Below are positions 7,507 through 30,871 of a stretch of 33,063 nt of DNA, piece after piece (the first letter of the stretch is position 1; each line of letters begins with the position of its first letter). A program made the translations under genes and the position numbers. This DNA is from Candidatus Gastranaerophilales bacterium (lineage in GTDB: Bacteria > Cyanobacteriota > Vampirovibrionia > Gastranaerophilales > Gastranaerophilaceae): the NCBI GenBank assembly GCA_944325835.1, contig CALVBO010000015.1, forward strand, positions 1-33,063. The letters are read 5' to 3'. A model generated the notes under the pieces. That model had not been told where the DNA came from and made no database searches. It saw only the letters and a list, made by a program, of their open reading frames with translations.

Positions 7507-10326
7507 TTACCCTCCCTCAAGTGATTTAAAATATTCTTTGTTGTTTTCAAGAGTGTTTTTAGTCGCCAGCACCGAATAAAGCGGCTTGCCGCTGAAAACA
7601 TTCTTCGCAACATTCTGAATATCGTCCGCCGTAATTTTATCAATCATGGCAAATGTTTGGTTGACATTCGTCAGCCCGTAGAAGCTGTATAAACCGTCGT
7701 GTAAAAGCTCGCTTCTGCCAATCGGGTGCTCTGCGGCGTTAAGTAAATCGTTTTTAAGCGAAAGTTTTGCATTTTCCAATTCTTCCGCAGTAACTTTTTC
7801 ATTTTTCATGCGCTCAATATTTTCATTGAAACCGGCAATCGCTTTTTGAACATTGTCATAGCTGATTTCGCCTGTATCTGGATTATCTGTAGTTGTTCCG
7901 ATAGAAAGTTTTACCATGCCGGTATTGCCTTTATGGTCAAGAGTTGAGCGCACGGAATACGCAAGTTTACGTTCTTCGCGCAAATCCTGAAACAATCTTG
8001 ATGTTGCACCGCCGCCAAGAATTGTATTCATAAGCCGCAGCGTCAAAGCATCCTGCATATTACCGGAATGTTTATATGTAAAGGCCTCAATAATTTTAGC
8101 CTGATTAGTTGCATCATCATCAACCAGCACTTTTGTTTTTTCAACCGGCTTATAGTTGTTACGCAATGATACTGAAAATTTTTCAAAGTTATCAAACGTA
8201 TTCATCTTTTCAAAAAGGGTATTTTGAAGTTCAGGATTTTTCTCAAACGGTGCCGACATTACAATACTCGCCGCGGATTCCGACATAATCTGTTTATAGA
8301 GTGCTTTTACGTCGTCAAATGTTGCATCTTCTATGGATTTAAGAATTTGCTGCTTATTCATGCCGGCAGGTTCGTCCTTGAAAAGTTCCTCAAAAAGTTT
8401 ATCCGAAGCGGACTTATCGGAAATTTTTATGACGTCTGTGACAAACGCTTTTGCGTGTTTAAATTCTTCTTCTGTAAAACGAGGGTGATTAAGGACTTCT
8501 TTCATCAAATCAAGCGCTTTTGCGGTATCTTCCGAGGCAAAATCCATATTGGCGCCGATTGAGCGCAGAGAAGAGTGAAAATTCCCGCTGATACCGTTCT
8601 TTTCAAACTCTCTTGCCAGAGTTTGTTTATCCTTGCCCATTGTTCCCTGATTAAGCATATAGTCCAAAATCAGGCTTGCACCGAGGTTTTTGGAAATTTT
8701 GTCGTGCTGCGGGATATACATTTCCATCACAAGATTGGCTTGATTAGTATTAATATCATTTGTTACCACCTGCATATTGTTTGGAAGCACGTAAGATTTG
8801 ATATTTTCTTCGTTCAAAACGGTTTTGGCAGAACCGAAAGAAATTTTCTCGGCAGCAGCGTGGTTTGTTTTGATTTTATCGGCATTAGCCGTTGCAGGGT
8901 GAACAACCGTAATTGAGGCTTTATTCAGGTCGTAATATTTTTTAGCAGTATCCGCAATATCTTTAGAGGTTAAGCCGTCAACGATATCTTTAAACTTTGT
9001 GATTTCGTCAAAGCTGCTGTCTAAAAGGACTTCGCCTATTATGCTGTTTGTTCCGGCAGAGGTTTCAAAGACGGAAGAAAATAGTTTTGAAAGCTGTTTT
9101 TTTGCAATCCCGAGTTCTTCCTCAGTCGGCGGATTAACTTTGATATTTTCGATTTCCTGATAGAGGATTTTCAAAACTTTTTCGGAATTTTCCTCCGTAG
9201 TCTGACCGCCGATAATCATTGCACGCGGCGCGCCGGTTTTGCTTGAAATTTTCTCATCTTCAATAAACAAAGAAGTGTTATAATCCTTGAGTTTAGTTTC
9301 AAGCCGCGAACTGCTCAGGTTTGCCAGAATCATATCGAGGGCAAGGATTTTAACTTTATCCTCAATATTATTGCTTTCAGGACCGTTAAAGCCGACAAGA
9401 ATTGTTGTACCTTTTGCCTTATCGGAAATTATATCTTCGCGAACCGGTTTATCAATAGGTTTCAAGTCCTCGAAATGCCTGTCTTTTGGCGGGAGTTTAT
9501 CAGAAGTAAAATATTTTGAAACGAGTTCAATTGCCTCTTCCGGCTTGACGTCACCTGTTATAACCGTAGTCATATTTGCAGGATAGTAGTTCTGGTTAAA
9601 ATAATTGACTACATCTTCGCGCGTAAGATGATTGATATTATCAGTTGTTCCGCCGATTAAATCAACAGAAGTTGTTTTAATGTTATATAGATTTTTAAGC
9701 ATTTTATTAAGCCCGATATTAACAGGATCAGACGTAATCATGTTGATTTCGGAATTAACAATGCCTTTTTCTTTTTCAAGCATGTCTAGCGCAAATTTAG
9801 GCGTTTGAAGCATTGATGCGTGAATTTTCATCTGCTCTTCCAGATCTGTATCTTTCAGAAGATTAGATTTGATAAAGTAGTTTGTTTCCGCCATGCCTGT
9901 TGCGGCGTTGGTATAGGCACCCATTTTGTCAACAGTTTTGAAAAATTCGCCTTTTTCTAAGCCCTCAGACCCGTTAAAGAAATTATGCTCAAGATAGTGG
10001 GAAATCCCGCGTTTATTATCAGTTTCGTTCATTGAACCGGTATTCACGTACGTTTTAAGGACAGTTGCGCCTTCTTTCGGAACGATTACAACTTTCTGAC
10101 CGTTGGCAAGCTTGTAGTAATGCGCTTTAAGATCAAACGGAAGCTCTACTTCATAGAGTTTGTTATAAGCCATAGGCTTTTTAACATTATAATCCGGTGC
10201 GGGAGCCGCGCTCTGTACAGGAGTTTCCGTTTTATCCTCTACAGGAGCATTACCACGGAAAGTCGGACTCGTTACATATTTTATCTGATTATTGGGGTTA
10301 ACGCTTATACTATTTATTCGCAACAT
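7507..10326 (-). CDS. M16 (pitrilysin) family zinc metallopeptidase, double-domain
   Basis: This is a predicted zinc peptidase with two tandem M16 halves. The inverted zinc motif HxxEH is H110-YL-E113-H114 (ISHYLEHNFF), and the distal Glu is probably E193 in NSEINM. The C-terminal half has the inactive-domain signature SRLFQDLREERKLAYSV, which supplies the Arg/Tyr substrate contacts. At 939 residues it matches the one-chain clamshell enzymes. The first 50 residues (with the motif TSPTFRGN, then Ala/Pro-rich) precede the first domain and lack a signal peptide. The 5' region has two notable parts: a dispersed repeat starting 2 bases from the ATG that carries GGAG, and beyond it a promoter-like motif shared with the zincin gene at 17.7 kb. 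The substrate is unknown. Confidence 0.92.
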   Translation of the reverse strand: MLRINSISVNPNNQIKYVTSPTFRGNAPVEDKTETPVQSAAPAPDYNVKKPMAYNKLYEVELPFDLKAHYYKLANGQKVVIVPKEGATVLKTYVNTGSMNETDNKRGISHYLEHNFFNGSEGLEKGEFFKTVDKMGAYTNAATGMAETNYFIKSNLLKDTDLEEQMKIHASMLQTPKFALDMLEKEKGIVNSEINMITSDPVNIGLNKMLKNLYNIKTTSVDLIGGTTDNINHLTREDVVNYFNQNYYPANMTTVITGDVKPEEAIELVSKYFTSDKLPPKDRHFEDLKPIDKPVREDIISDKAKGTTILVGFNGPESNNIEDKVKILALDMILANLSSSRLETKLKDYNTSLFIEDEKISSKTGAPRAMIIGGQTTEENSEKVLKILYQEIENIKVNPPTEEELGIAKKQLSKLFSSVFETSAGTNSIIGEVLLDSSFDEITKFKDIVDGLTSKDIADTAKKYYDLNKASITVVHPATANADKIKTNHAAAEKISFGSAKTVLNEENIKSYVLPNNMQVVTNDINTNQANLVMEMYIPQHDKISKNLGASLILDYMLNQGTMGKDKQTLAREFEKNGISGNFHSSLRSIGANMDFASEDTAKALDLMKEVLNHPRFTEEEFKHAKAFVTDVIKISDKSASDKLFEELFKDEPAGMNKQQILKSIEDATFDDVKALYKQIMSESAASIVMSAPFEKNPELQNTLFEKMNTFDNFEKFSVSLRNNYKPVEKTKVLVDDDATNQAKIIEAFTYKHSGNMQDALTLRLMNTILGGGATSRLFQDLREERKLAYSVRSTLDHKGNTGMVKLSIGTTTDNPDTGEISYDNVQKAIAGFNENIERMKNEKVTAEELENAKLSLKNDLLNAAEHPIGRSELLHDGLYSFYGLTNVNQTFAMIDKITADDIQNVAKNVFSGKPLYSVLATKNTLENNKEYFKSLEGG

Positions 10327-10327
10327 G

Positions 10328-10436
10328 AAAAGCAGTTCTCCGCCATTTCCGCCCCGCTGAACCGCGGGTCGCGCATGGCTGCGCTGTCTAAACCGTCACT
10401 CCAAAATTTTGCATTTGCAAAATTTTCTCGGACAAC
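10328..10436 (-). repeat. Dispersed 5'-UTR repeat, copy A
   Basis: On the plus strand it starts AAAAGCAGTTCTCCGCC and ends TTTTCTCGGACAACA. It contains an 11-bp AT-rich hairpin (arms 10403-10413 and 10416-10426) and a CCCGC/GCGGG hairpin (10353-10357 with 10364-10368). Read on the minus strand it ends in GCGGAGAACTGCTTTT just before the M16 ATG, so GGAG can act as the SD. Confidence 0.8.
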
Positions 10437-10448
10437 ACTACCTTTTAT

Positions 10449-10488
10449 ATTATTTATAACGGGCGTACAGAGGAAAAATTGCGCATTT
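10449..10488 (-). promoter_or_regulatory. Upstream motif shared with the zincin gene, copy 1
   Basis: This 40-base stretch aligns without gaps to 17743-17782 at 32 of 40 positions, including a TTATAAATAAT-type core and GCGCAATTTTT on the minus strand. It lies beyond the repeat that separates it from the M16 start codon. It is likely a promoter or operator. Confidence 0.55.
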
Positions 10489-10504
10489 TACAGAAATTGT
10501 AAAC

Positions 10505-11212
10505 TTAGATTACAAGTAAAAGTTTTATTATCCCGAGCGTCAACAGACTCAAAACAACAAGCGCGCCCCACAGTCCAATTTTAACTTTACGCCTGAGGGT
10601 AAAAAACGGCGCAGGTTTGGATTTGGCAACGGTCGGATATTTGTCAAATTTTGAAAGTTTTTTCTCGGGCTTGCGGCTCTGAACCTTTTTTCGCCGCGCG
10701 ATTTCATCTTCTTTTGCCTGCATTTGAAGATATTTTTCCTTCAAGGTATTTTTATCCTTACTCCGCTTACCGGTTACAAGAAGCTCTTCGTCAAAAAGAA
10801 GCCTTGACACAGAAGCGTCCTGACCGTTTTTTGCCGAATAAAACATAACCGCAACTTCAAACGCCCGCTGCAGGCACTCTAACGCTTTTATTCCGTCCTT
10901 ATCCACCGCACGCGTGTGAACGGACTGATTTCCCGCTTTCTTCAAAAAATACAAATCGCTTATAAGTTCACGTTTTTCCGTACAATTAATCAGGTAATCG
11001 TCAAGGTTTGCAAGCATAGTATCAAACGTATCGTTTGGCTGATAATTCCCGTTGAGAAGCTCACGGCAGACATTCTCCGCAAAACATCTGGTCTGCGTCA
11101 TACACTGTTGAAAATATTCATCACGATAAAGCGCCTCCGCCTCTTTTGCAAGTTTAAAAATGTTGCGATTTATTTCTTTTATAAAGTAAAAATTGCTTTC
11201 GTTCTTTTTCAT
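10505..11212 (-). CDS. DUF4145-like protein with C-terminal membrane anchor
   Basis: The function is not known. The N-terminal 130 residues resemble the DUF4145 helical domain: a helix with CFAENVCRELL, then FLKKAGNQSVHT, reminiscent of the GN.(A)H pattern in that family. This domain occurs alone or fused to restriction and defence proteins. Residues 150-205 are highly charged and Lys/Arg-rich. The last 26 residues form a single hydrophobic helix (IGLWGALVVLSLLTLGIIKL), so the protein looks tail-anchored with the domain in the cytoplasm. The SD is modest (AGGG). It is flanked by the M16 gene and the sRNA-like unit, and no defence genes are nearby. The domain assignment is tentative. Confidence 0.7.
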   Translation of the reverse strand: MKKNESNFYFIKEINRNIFKLAKEAEALYRDEYFQQCMTQTRCFAENVCRELLNGNYQPNDTFDTMLANLDDYLINCTEKRELISDLYFLKKAGNQSVHTRAVDKDGIKALECLQRAFEVAVMFYSAKNGQDASVSRLLFDEELLVTGKRSKDKNTLKEKYLQMQAKEDEIARRKKVQSRKPEKKLSKFDKYPTVAKSKPAPFFTLRRKVKIGLWGALVVLSLLTLGIIKLLLVI

Positions 11213-13324: not shown

Positions 13325-14044
13325 TTAACAAGATTTCAGTTTTGCGATTTCTACGTTAAATAAATATTGTACATCAACGTCCGTAATTATATTTGCAATA
13401 ACGTCATTAGGATTAACTTCAAACTCATCTTTAAGCTTATTGAAAATTCCGCAAACCCTGACGCCTGTATATTCCTGAATAAGCTTGATCGTAACGGATT
13501 CCTCGTCCACAAGCCCCGCGGAAGTCGATAGAACCACACCCCGCAGAGAAACACCGCTGTTTTGCGCCTGCTGAATTGCCATAATCGTATTGTTTATTGA
13601 AGAACTTTCTGCCGGAGCGACCAGTACAACCGGAAGCGAAAGATTTTTCACCAGATCAGCCTCAAGAAATTTTCGCGTTATAGGAGTAGATAGTCCAAGT
13701 GTTCCGTCTGTCACAATGCACTCAAAATTACGGGAAAACGTCATATAATCCTGATAAATTAAATCAACGTCAATCTCAACACCCTCAAGCGCCGCCGCAA
13801 TTACAGGACTGGAATCAGACTTGAAAAGATACGTGGAAAAAGTTTCCATATAAGAATCCACGTACTTCATAAACTCCAAATCACGTGATTTTAAAAGGTT
13901 ATCCTTTGTAACGGCAGCCCCCGTCTGAATCGGTTTATAAAGCGTTGTATAATACCCGAGCGCCTGCATGGTGCCCGCAAGCCCCGCCGAAAACACAATC
14001 TTCCCTGTATTTTTTTCTGTTTCCGTTACAAATAGTTCTAGCAT
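13325..14044 (-). CDS. Dethiobiotin synthetase-like protein with degenerate P-loop
   Basis: The overall layout follows BioD/CobQ-type P-loop proteins: an N-terminal strand and loop (LFVTETEKNTGKIVFSAGLA), then LYKPIQTGA, SSPVIAAALEG, IVTDGTLGLSTPI and LPVVLVAPAESSSINNTIMAI. However, the Walker A is altered. The first Gly of GT(D/E)T..GKT is Glu (E8), and the final Thr is Ile (I16), although G14-K15 are kept. The usual VEGAGG motif reads VTDGTLGL. True dethiobiotin synthetase activity is therefore doubtful. I start at 14044, giving 239 residues; the longer reading from 14173 translates a dispersed repeat. GGAG from that repeat lies 14 bases upstream. No other biotin gene is in view. Confidence 0.7.
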   Translation of the reverse strand: MLELFVTETEKNTGKIVFSAGLAGTMQALGYYTTLYKPIQTGAAVTKDNLLKSRDLEFMKYVDSYMETFSTYLFKSDSSPVIAAALEGVEIDVDLIYQDYMTFSRNFECIVTDGTLGLSTPITRKFLEADLVKNLSLPVVLVAPAESSSINNTIMAIQQAQNSGVSLRGVVLSTSAGLVDEESVTIKLIQEYTGVRVCGIFNKLKDEFEVNPNDVIANIITDVDVQYLFNVEIAKLKSC

Positions 14045-14048
14045 CGTT

Positions 14049-14155
14049 AAAAGCAGTTCTCCGCCACCTGCTTGGCAAACGCGGTTTGCCAACCCGTGGC
14101 TATGCTGTCTAATACGCCACTCAAAAATTTCGCTTGGCGAAATTTTCTCGGACAC
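14049..14155 (-). repeat. Dispersed 5'-UTR repeat, copy B
   Basis: It has the same ends as copy A (AAAAGCAGTTCTCCGCC and AAATTTTCTCGGACA). The hairpins are kept but their sequence has changed: TTGGCAAAC-GCG-GTTTGCCAA (14072-14092) and AAAATTTCGC-TTG-GCGAAATTTT (14124-14146). The stems differ from copy A while pairing is preserved. It lies 5 bases upstream of the BioD-like ATG. Confidence 0.8.
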
Positions 14156-16886: not shown

Positions 16887-17729
16887 TTAAATATCAATTT
16901 TGACATCCGGCAAATCCGCTATTGCGAGCTTTGCAGCGACACCGGTACCTATTCCGGCAAGAAGGTAGGTCATCCACGCTAAGAAATAATTTTTCTTCAA
17001 CACTTTAAGATTTGCACCGGCACCAAGAGTTTTCTTCGCGGCATTAATGCCGCGGATTGACGCCGCCGCTTCCTCAATAATTGTAGGCAAGAACGCACAA
17101 AAACCTATTATACCGGCATTGCGCTCCCAAAAATTCTTTTTGCCGTCACGGCTGGCACCGGAAGCGCTATTTAATGCTGCAATAGCCACAGGCGCAAGCA
17201 TTCCGACAACACGCAATTTTTGCAAACCTTTCATAACCAAGCTTTTCTCAAAGTTAATGGCGTGTCCGAGTTCGTGCAAAATCAAGGAAGGTTTAGATTT
17301 CGGAGCTACAACAAAATTCCCCTGATTTGTATAAAATGCATTTCGTCCATCTGCAACAACATCCAAACTCTTAGACAATTCCGGGAACATATTTTGCAGC
17401 CCGGCTTTATTTTTGTGGTCAATATAATGAATATATGCACTCAAACCTTTTTCTTTTTTCATTGTGTTGGCAACTTTTTCCACATCCTCGCGCGGAGCAA
17501 ATTCCTTCCCTGCCATAAGTGCGGCCGAACAAACATCGGAAAGTTTTTCCAATCCGTACATCGAAAGACGCAATAAACCTGCAACACCTACTGCCTTCGC
17601 GGTCGTAGAAAGCTCCTCATCTTGCGGCAGATCCAAATAAACACGCATAGAATGCTGCGGCGCATTTTGCGTCGGAACAAACCGATAATCACGGTTATAA
17701 ACATTCGAATTTAACGTTACATTATTCAT
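16887..17729 (-). CDS. Putative membrane zinc metallopeptidase (HELGH zincin)
   Basis: The zincin motif H152-E-L-G-H156 (SLILHELGHAINFE) is followed about 63 residues later by EEAAAS (219-224), a plausible third zinc ligand. The order recalls M48-like and related membrane zincins. Hydrophobic stretches flank it (about 172-186, 206-218, 247-270), so the chain is probably anchored with two or three helices. The N-terminal 45 residues have no signal peptide and look disordered. The exact family is not recognised. The region before its ATG (GGTAGTGTGTC) and a 40-base motif are shared with the M16 peptidase gene, hinting at joint control of two metallopeptidases. It lies between prfB and the ABC gene. 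Confidence 0.75.
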   Translation of the reverse strand: MNNVTLNSNVYNRDYRFVPTQNAPQHSMRVYLDLPQDEELSTTAKAVGVAGLLRLSMYGLEKLSDVCSAALMAGKEFAPREDVEKVANTMKKEKGLSAYIHYIDHKNKAGLQNMFPELSKSLDVVADGRNAFYTNQGNFVVAPKSKPSLILHELGHAINFEKSLVMKGLQKLRVVGMLAPVAIAALNSASGASRDGKKNFWERNAGIIGFCAFLPTIIEEAAASIRGINAAKKTLGAGANLKVLKKNYFLAWMTYLLAGIGTGVAAKLAIADLPDVKIDI

Positions 17730-17742
17730 GACACACTACCAC

Positions 17743-17782
17743 ATTATCTATAACGTTATTTCAGAGAAAAAATTGCGCGTTT
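17743..17782 (-). promoter_or_regulatory. Upstream motif shared with the M16 peptidase gene, copy 2
   Basis: The motif is 32/40 identical, without gaps, to 10449-10488. On the minus strand it contains GCGCAATTTTTTCTCTG and, after a divergent 6-base block, CGTTATAGATAAT. It lies 13 bases from the zincin ATG. Confidence 0.55.
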
Positions 17783-28987: not shown

Positions 28988-30871
28988 TTACGCTACAAGC
29001 TGGCGGACATAGGCAGCGCTGTAACCCATTTTCGGCATTATGTCAGCAACAATCTTTTTAGCACTGTCAGAAATATAAACTTCTTTGCGAACTTTAGATT
29101 CTGGCACTTCTGCTTGTCCTTGTGAACCCTGAACCATTGCAACTATAGAACCTGCTAGCTGCATTGCCTGACCGACATTTGCAAGACCTTCTTTTGAGAA
29201 TATCTTACGTAAAGTAGATTTTGCTCTTGATTCCGTTCTTGCTCTAACCTCAGCGGCATCTTTCTTTGCAGTTTTCACATCCGCAACGTCATCTGTTTCA
29301 ACATCTTTCCCTTTAGCACCTTCAGTGCCTTTCGCTTCAGGGGTTTCTTCGGTACCTTCCACGCCTTCGGTACCTTTTGCACCATCGGCACCTTCGGTAC
29401 CTTCAACTCCTGCGGTATCACCCGTTTCGGCAGCAGGGTCTGTTCCCTCTGCCGGCGCAGTATCATCAGGAGCCTGTGTAGAATCCGTAGCTTCGGTACC
29501 TTCTTTACCTTCAACCTTGCCTGCATCATCCGCATCTTTTGCGCCCTGTGTTTCTTCCAGTTCATCGGCCTTATCTGCCGCTGCTGTTCCTTTTGTATTA
29601 GCGGCATCAGCTTGTTCTCTAATTGATTTCAACTCGTTATCCAAATTCTTCCATTGGGAAGTCATTTGTTTAGTAGATTGAACGGCTGACATACCGGATT
29701 GAACTGCACTTGCTGCAGACATAAAGGCAGCCTGAACCATACCGGCAGACGCATAAGCTACCGTTTGTGTGAGTTTTGCAGCAGTTTTACCCCATTGACC
29801 CACAGTCTTACCCGTTGTACCAATAGGTTCCATAACCGCACCGGCTGCCGCCAGTGCAGCACCCACAAACGGGATACCCGCACACGCTTTAAAGACACGG
29901 CCTAAATTTTCAATAATAGAACCGGTTGTCTCAACGATTGTTGAAATTTCTTCAATATCCTGTGCAACTTCAAGTGTTTTTTCAAGTTTTGTTTGATTTT
30001 TGTCTAAATCTTTCTGGTTAGCCTTGTTGGTTTTAACATAAGCCTTAGCGGTTCTGTTCATCTCATTGACCAACGCTTTGGAAGAGCGGCCTATAACGTT
30101 AATCTTTGATTGTCCGATTGTAATTGTAGAGCTTTTTTCACGGATTGCATTTCTTAATGTAGCTATTTTTTCAAAATTGCCGGAACCTGATGCTATTTCA
30201 GCTTCCAATTCCGCAGAATATTCATCAATGGATTTATTGGCAGCATCCATTTCCATCATAACCGCACGGCGTTCTTCCTCTAATTTCTTAAATTCTGCCT
30301 GTTGTTTAGCATCTTTTTCCTTAAATTTATCATCATTTTTCTTGATTGATTTTTGTAATTTTACACTTTTTTTACTGATAGAAGAAGCCTCATCTTCGCG
30401 GCTTTCAACATCATTAATGCCGCCTTTCAAATCAGAAGTTTGAGTATCTAATTCTTCAGCAGCGGCACGGCCTTTGGTAGCGTCACGGCCAATGCCTAAA
30501 TCGTCAGTTTCGGCAGCATCATTTCCGCCGATCATACTTGTATCAAGACCGGAAGTAAGTGTATTAATTCCGCCGGAAGTACCGCCTGTAGAAGAAGTAC
30601 CGTTAGTTCCGCCGGAAACAAAATTCATCTGACCGTTAAAAATACTATTACCGCCGCGTTGACCGGTGGTTGTTGCACGGCGTGAATTTCTGAGCGATAA
30701 AATTGACGGCTGATTATTTGTTGAGAAAATATTCGGGTCATTAAAAACGGAACCGTCTTTAGTCATATCGACAGGAGTACGCGCAGTCGTAGTCTTTTGA
30801 CTTACGCCTTTCTTCGGACGTATATAATTCGCGCCGTTCGCCGAATTAATATCCACGCTGAACATACTCAT
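28988..30871 (-). CDS. Large hypothetical coiled-coil protein with EGT/EGA low-complexity tract
   Basis: The function is not recognised. At 627 residues it is built of distinct zones. The N-terminus is Gly/Ser/Thr-rich and probably disordered (about 1-125). Long helices with coiled-coil character cover about 150-320 (KFKEKDAKQQAEFKKLEEERRAV). A small-residue hydrophobic stretch lies near 330-400 (ACAGIPFVGAALAAAGAVMEPIG). An acidic low-complexity tract of EGTE/EGAD/AKG triplets spans about 450-527, and the C-terminal domain ends GYSAAYVRQLVA. No signal peptide is seen. I start at 30871, with GGAGAG about 8 bases upstream; the 30925 reading has no support. The alternation of coiled coils with a hydrophobic core loosely recalls secreted translocator proteins, but nothing nearby supports that. 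Confidence 0.72.
   Translation of the reverse strand: MSMFSVDINSANGANYIRPKKGVSQKTTTARTPVDMTKDGSVFNDPNIFSTNNQPSILSLRNSRRATTTGQRGGNSIFNGQMNFVSGGTNGTSSTGGTSGGINTLTSGLDTSMIGGNDAAETDDLGIGRDATKGRAAAEELDTQTSDLKGGINDVESREDEASSISKKSVKLQKSIKKNDDKFKEKDAKQQAEFKKLEEERRAVMMEMDAANKSIDEYSAELEAEIASGSGNFEKIATLRNAIREKSSTITIGQSKINVIGRSSKALVNEMNRTAKAYVKTNKANQKDLDKNQTKLEKTLEVAQDIEEISTIVETTGSIIENLGRVFKACAGIPFVGAALAAAGAVMEPIGTTGKTVGQWGKTAAKLTQTVAYASAGMVQAAFMSAASAVQSGMSAVQSTKQMTSQWKNLDNELKSIREQADAANTKGTAAADKADELEETQGAKDADDAGKVEGKEGTEATDSTQAPDDTAPAEGTDPAAETGDTAGVEGTEGADGAKGTEGVEGTEETPEAKGTEGAKGKDVETDDVADVKTAKKDAAEVRARTESRAKSTLRKIFSKEGLANVGQAMQLAGSIVAMVQGSQGQAEVPESKVRKEVYISDSAKKIVADIMPKMGYSAAYVRQLVA
29290..29520. repeat. 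Low-complexity coding tract (EGT/EGA/AKG triplets)
   Basis: On the plus strand this appears as repeated TTCGGTACCTTC-like and GCACCTTC units. It encodes the acidic Gly-Thr-Glu-rich stretch of the large coiled-coil protein. The near-direct repeats are prone to length change by slippage. Confidence 0.7.

Follow-up and report, generated by a model that had tools for sequence, protein, structure and literature searches.

A structured mobile element probably inserted between a promoter-like block and the start codon of an M16 metallopeptidase gene in a Gastranaerophilales genome

Two genes in the stretch of DNA analysed here, a window of 33,063 nucleotides from a Gastranaerophilales (Melainabacteria) MAG, are preceded by closely similar sequence, and in one of them a repeat stands between that sequence and the start codon. 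Was the repeat inserted into a leader that had been without it, and, if so, how does such an element move and what does it do to the gene that it precedes? The host lineage is a gut relative of the cyanobacteria. The first gene encodes an M16 metallopeptidase (7507-10326, PF00675 and PF05193; minus strand, as are all genes, motifs and element copies located in the window below), the top database match of which, at 95% identity, is in a Gastranaerophilales MAG; M16 relatives are encoded in all 59 sampled genomes. The second gene (16887-17729) is zincin-like by the HELGH motif read in its translation, and gave no Pfam match at E <= 1e-3. The comparisons within the genus cover seven genomes, namely the one from which the window comes (G000, below the own genome; 1.95 Mb in 44 contigs) and six congeners (G001-G006).

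The sequence-only reading of the window had claimed an ungapped match of 32 in 40 positions between 10449-10488, upstream of the M16 gene, and 17743-17782, upstream of the zincin-like gene, and our recount gave the same figure. Elsewhere in the window the score was at most 23/40, in other own-genome DNA at most 25/40 over 766,000 strand positions, and in 100 Markov-simulated windows at most 27/40. When the own assembly was searched with 10400-10620, the zincin place was the only match besides the query itself (E = 6.8e-4). The promoter-like block common to both leaders and conserved between them consists of GCAATTTTT, 13 nt and a GTTATAAATAAT-like part; in the M16 leader the upstream part, GCAATTTTT, occupies 10474-10482 and the -10-like block, GTTATAAATAATAT, 10447-10460, and in the zincin leader GCAATTTTT lies at 17768-17776. 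The zincin leader of G002 retains both blocks and their spacing, with a diverged spacer. Conservation also reaches beyond the genus: many M16 orthologues of the family carry GCAATTTTT, about 11-13 nt, and GTTTTTAT or GTTATAAAT, often followed by AGGTAG and the ATG, and the exact word GCAATTTT is absent from 12 of the 30 M16 loci compared. With a matrix derived solely from M16 leaders, the zincin site scored 23.6 and its closest rival in 416 kb of own-genome DNA 14.0. We infer that the block is a promoter because of where it lies and because its -10-like part is rich in AT. By eye, a weaker form of the motif is present 5' of two other genes, G000:C2:32715 and G002:C1:91521. A wider regulon was considered and is not established, since the M16 and zincin genes are the sole outliers in the 416 kb.

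It had further been claimed that about 105 bases of a repeat, copy A, intervene between the motif and the M16 start codon, and that the likeness of the two leaders continues as GGTAGTGT(T)GTC. The first claim was borne out: copy A measures 106 nt (10329-10434; TGTCCGAG...GAACTGCTTT), and its 3' end is two bases short of the ATG at 10326. The second survives in its first half only. The GGTAGTGT part is real (10435-10442 at the M16 gene, 17733-17740 at the zincin-like gene) and represents the final native bases ahead of the insertion, the AAAGG in it being the native Shine-Dalgarno-like site. There the likeness stops; the TGTC that follows is the left end of copy A (TGTCCGAG), and the proposed extension therefore holds three to four chance letters.

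Insertion between motif and start codon is supported by the comparison proposed along with it, an alignment of M16 upstream regions across relatives in search of a repeat-free allele: the site is empty in all six congeners. In these genomes the motif, with GCAATTTTT in place, is kept 52-55 nt 5' of the ATG, as against 156 nt in the window, where the spacing is explained by the inserted 106-nt element; the difference, 101-104 nt, is about the element size. Neither end of the repeat occurs within 300 nt 5' of the M16 gene in any of the six, and both occur in the window. In the closest sister, with 95% protein identity, the leader sequence is GTTATAAATAATATAAAAGGTAGTAGTGTTTACATG. The own genome is thus the only one of the seven with the element between promoter block and ATG, and none was seen at the orthologous place in more distant relatives among the M16 leaders compared. 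The -10-like block and its spacing are what suggests that the insertion lies in a 5' UTR.

Copy A belongs to an abundant family. At least 40 places in the own genome, copy A included, match the element at E <= 1.9e-11, a count that comes from scoring 40 of 120 first-look candidates, and the family, with tens of copies, is represented in all seven genomes of the genus by the form TGTCCGAGAAA...GAACTGCTTTATT, with TGTCC and CTTTATT as the ends. Queried with a canonical copy, 9 of 59 relatives gave matches: the seven of the genus (own genome included), and G011 and G017 with half-matches. The conserved loop GCGATAAGGAACGTGAGC, with at most one mismatch, occurs in 15 of 191 sampled genomes of the family, its reversed control in none, and viral contigs gave no exact match to it. 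Cousin elements in four other genera (L158, L166-L173, L182-L185) have the left half in common and a different right end, ACACTAGATTA. The element folds as two covarying compound hairpins, in which the unpaired stretches are nearly invariant. In an alignment of 21 copies of up to 126 nt, picked from a set of 73, 94.7% of cells were paired and 13 of 28 pairs had changed on both sides, which none of 500 shuffles equalled; slid alignments gave 35-44% pairing, and further pair types did not exceed shuffles (455/500 as high). The 3' end, GGAGAACTG, is invariant and carries GGAG. Rfam 15, including introns and HEARO, returned nothing at the gathering threshold for copy A, the canonical copy or a cousin; its best match, to a microRNA family (E = 1.9e-4, on the cousin), was far below the gathering score of that family. 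No paper naming this element was found in a literature search that lay largely outside the subscription journals.

Filled and empty alleles at other sites indicate how the element inserts. Four clean pairs (L058/L103, L103/L133, L103/L058 and L100/L138) show that TG...ATT (or AAT) was inserted precisely, no base being duplicated; the pair search covered 35 copies of the own genome and 15 of sisters, the majority without a counterpart in the DNA compared. Terminal inverted repeats are lacking, TGTCCGAGAAA being unlike AATAAAGCAGTTC, the reverse complement of the right end. Over 41 copies the left flank is strongly A/T-rich and mostly ends in AT and the right flank has no clear preference, so that AT-richness is one-sided, and no fixed target tetra- or pentanucleotide is evident among these copies. 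TATAAT-like words adjoin the left end in modest excess (27/73 vs 18.4 +/- 3.3), which overlaps with the AT preference.

The window itself holds a second case. Copy B (14050-14154) is directly 5' of the ATG, at 14044, of an AAA_26 gene (13325-14044, PF13500), and G002 also has the element at this site, whereas G004 and G001 lack it. In G002 (L003:170-430) the right arm differs, with a nested palindrome, and the element is longer, 144 vs 103 nt by trimmed count; this difference at the orthologous site of two sister species suggests exchange of arms between copies. Elsewhere, the element lies between promoter and ATG of gene G000:C2:32715 (filled in G000 and G002, empty in G001, G003, G004 and G006) and of gene G002:C1:91521 (filled in G002, empty in G000), the putative promoters of both consisting of GCAAT..TT and an AT-rich part.

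Gene leaders are over-represented among the sites. In 22 of 73 copies a gene start in the sense direction follows within 45 nt of the end of the element, and three of 73 have an antisense start within that distance; random intergenic sites, weighted for target, would lead one to expect 11.9% and 10.6%, respectively. For the sense excess p = 2.6e-5 (6.7e-5 when site B is counted once), and for the antisense deficit p = 0.04; all three values treat the sites as independent, which is only roughly true, and the copies had been collected by similarity. The cousins show 5/15 sense and 1/15 antisense, a small sample. Only one of 50 copies was inside an ORF according to our crude gene caller, and two more were found by eye, in the G002 RAYT-like gene and at L140; other copies lie between convergent genes. 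The L140 copy (10282-10386, G000:C5) is old and in frame, forming the C-terminus of a gene that precedes what we take to be a FliP/SctR-like gene. Separately, the window contains direct repeats at 9-base spacing in a long minus-strand ORF (29286-29512).

What the insertion would do to M16 expression can be read from the leader. If transcription begins immediately after the -10-like block, the leader would measure about 121 nt in the filled form, compared with 17-20 nt in the empty one. Predicted pairing of the element GGAG with the anti-Shine-Dalgarno sequence is -6.6 kcal/mol, and that of the native AAAGG region -4.6 to -7.1 kcal/mol; at copy B the filled allele has -6.6 kcal/mol and the empty alleles -1.7 and -3.1 kcal/mol. 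Predicted accessibility of the M16 start region is 0.34 when filled, not above the 0.37-0.52 of the empty forms. The invariant 3' end with its GGAG may supply a replacement ribosome-binding site, as judged from sequence and calculated pairing.

The explanation that we consider likely is that a mobile non-coding element inserted between the M16 promoter block and the ATG, by a mechanism of the following kind. The element would be non-autonomous and moved one strand at a time by a recombinase that reads the folded strand, and would thus work like the ends of IS200/IS605. It would land in, or survive in, AT-rich transcription-start regions. At M16, a leader of about 20 bases would have become a structured one of about 120, and the lost AAAGG would have been replaced by the invariant GGAGAA of the element, 11 nt 5' of the ATG; the gene can thus probably still be translated, though at a different strength.

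Leaders may be sought out or only spared. The enrichment could be a by-product, in that insertions into genes and promoters are purged, leaders are tolerant, and the element GGAG rescues translation when in sense; the invariant GGAGAACTG, the replacement pairing energies at M16 and copy B and the intergenic bias all fit this account. The tendency is also seen, albeit in a small sample, in cousins that lack GGAG, and several sense copies retain a native Shine-Dalgarno sequence between element and ATG, where rescue is unneeded. We regard the by-product account as quite plausible, if not as the one to be expected. Alternatively, the element may act as a mobile riboregulator or attenuator, its hairpins, once transcribed, controlling the gene downstream; selection for this function, and not targeting or tolerance, would then retain it in leaders and produce the enrichment. 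The sense-only enrichment, a covarying structure with invariant unpaired stretches, and the position of cousins before start codons in spite of their different 3' end speak for regulation; the sites are polymorphic between close sisters, the downstream genes have no common function that we could see, and the element also sits inside a transposase gene and between convergent genes, which makes this alternative improbable. That the element was ancestral at M16 and lost six times is highly improbable: precise excision would look identical at one site, but six of six congeners, the 95%-identity sister included, are empty with native spacing, and a single gain is far simpler.

Mobile insertion upstream of the M16 ATG thus remains our preferred reading, and it has a bolder form, which we put forward tentatively and think rather unlikely to hold in full: the element might be a mobile 5' leader with its own ribosome-binding site, spreading by one-strand, duplication-free insertion into transcription-start bubbles, changing translation with promoter and protein intact, and moved by a class of enzyme not yet linked to such elements. 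The M16 site is a natural before-and-after pair for insertion between a putative promoter and a start codon, a situation seen at three genes whose promoters are similarly built. The element is abundant and structured, and inserts without duplication in genomes that lack the expected transposases. Its wider family, duplication-free insertion and bias towards leaders set it apart from a routine repeat. If leaders are truly targeted, mobile DNA would have a way to alter expression that leaves genes unbroken, and the search for the mobiliser would gain a definite object.

Several known systems offer partial likenesses. At integron attC sites, integrase-dependent recombination takes place at R boxes on a folded strand, without duplication. 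The element is unlike a MITE, having no terminal inverted repeats and, in the four clean pairs, no target-site duplication. It shares with GTAG REPs and REPINs the character of an abundant palindromic repeat of one lineage; unlike those that accompany a RAYT, it has no GTAG at its ends, and the RAYT of G002 is interrupted by a copy rather than flanked by copies. IS200/IS605 elements and their ends-only derivatives, PATEs, are described in the accessible part of PMC7290912 as having no terminal inverted repeats, no target duplication, end hairpins and a left-side target, and the present element resembles them in lacking inverted repeats and duplication, in the hairpin near each end and in its left-side preference. 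It differs in its sense-leader bias and its invariant internal-loop bases, in that the own genome has neither Y1 nor TnpB, and in that no fixed tetra- or pentanucleotide was evident beside the 41 copies. Rickettsia palindromic elements and CGTC-tagged REPs, according to the portions consulted of PMC2229807 and PMC3733652, are folded, lineage-specific repeats of 105-146 bp, some in genes, with no dedicated transposase known there; our element is likewise a folded repeat of that size range and of one lineage, with some copies in genes, but without a terminal CGTC or a 12-bp terminal inverted repeat, and enriched in leaders, not genes. Like the pneumococcal BOX, RUP and SPRITE elements, as far as the accessible text of PMC3049150 describes them, it is a small, structured, partly modular and probably transcribed repeat of one species group; it lacks the terminal inverted repeats and the target duplications that characterise BOX and RUP, and SPRITE is enriched near gene ends, whereas it is enriched before gene starts, in sense.

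Three candidates for the mobiliser were considered. Y1_Tnp (PF01797) is absent from the own genome and five of the six congeners as assembled, MAGs being liable to lose repeated genes. The only Y1/RAYT-like gene of the genus, in G002, has GTAG-type repeats of its own nearby and is itself broken by the element (L145:1383-1502, G002:C23), and Y1/RAYT was rejected on that ground. TnpB was rejected as well, none of 30 genomes being over the cut-off. Reverse transcriptase is present in 7/7 genomes of the genus, 3/8 other carriers and 4/15 non-carriers, a distribution that seemed promising at first; it was dropped because of its diversity-generating retroelement features, and because G011, with seven loop matches, has no reverse transcriptase. 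We take the enzyme of the genus to resemble that of a diversity-generating retroelement from its GLPIGNLTSQ motif and the template-like region upstream. Reverse transcriptase and template-like upstream sequence occur together in all seven genomes of the genus (L206:2210-3412 in G000:C9, and L207-L212), and in G006 (L211) a copy of the element lies within the reverse transcriptase leader.
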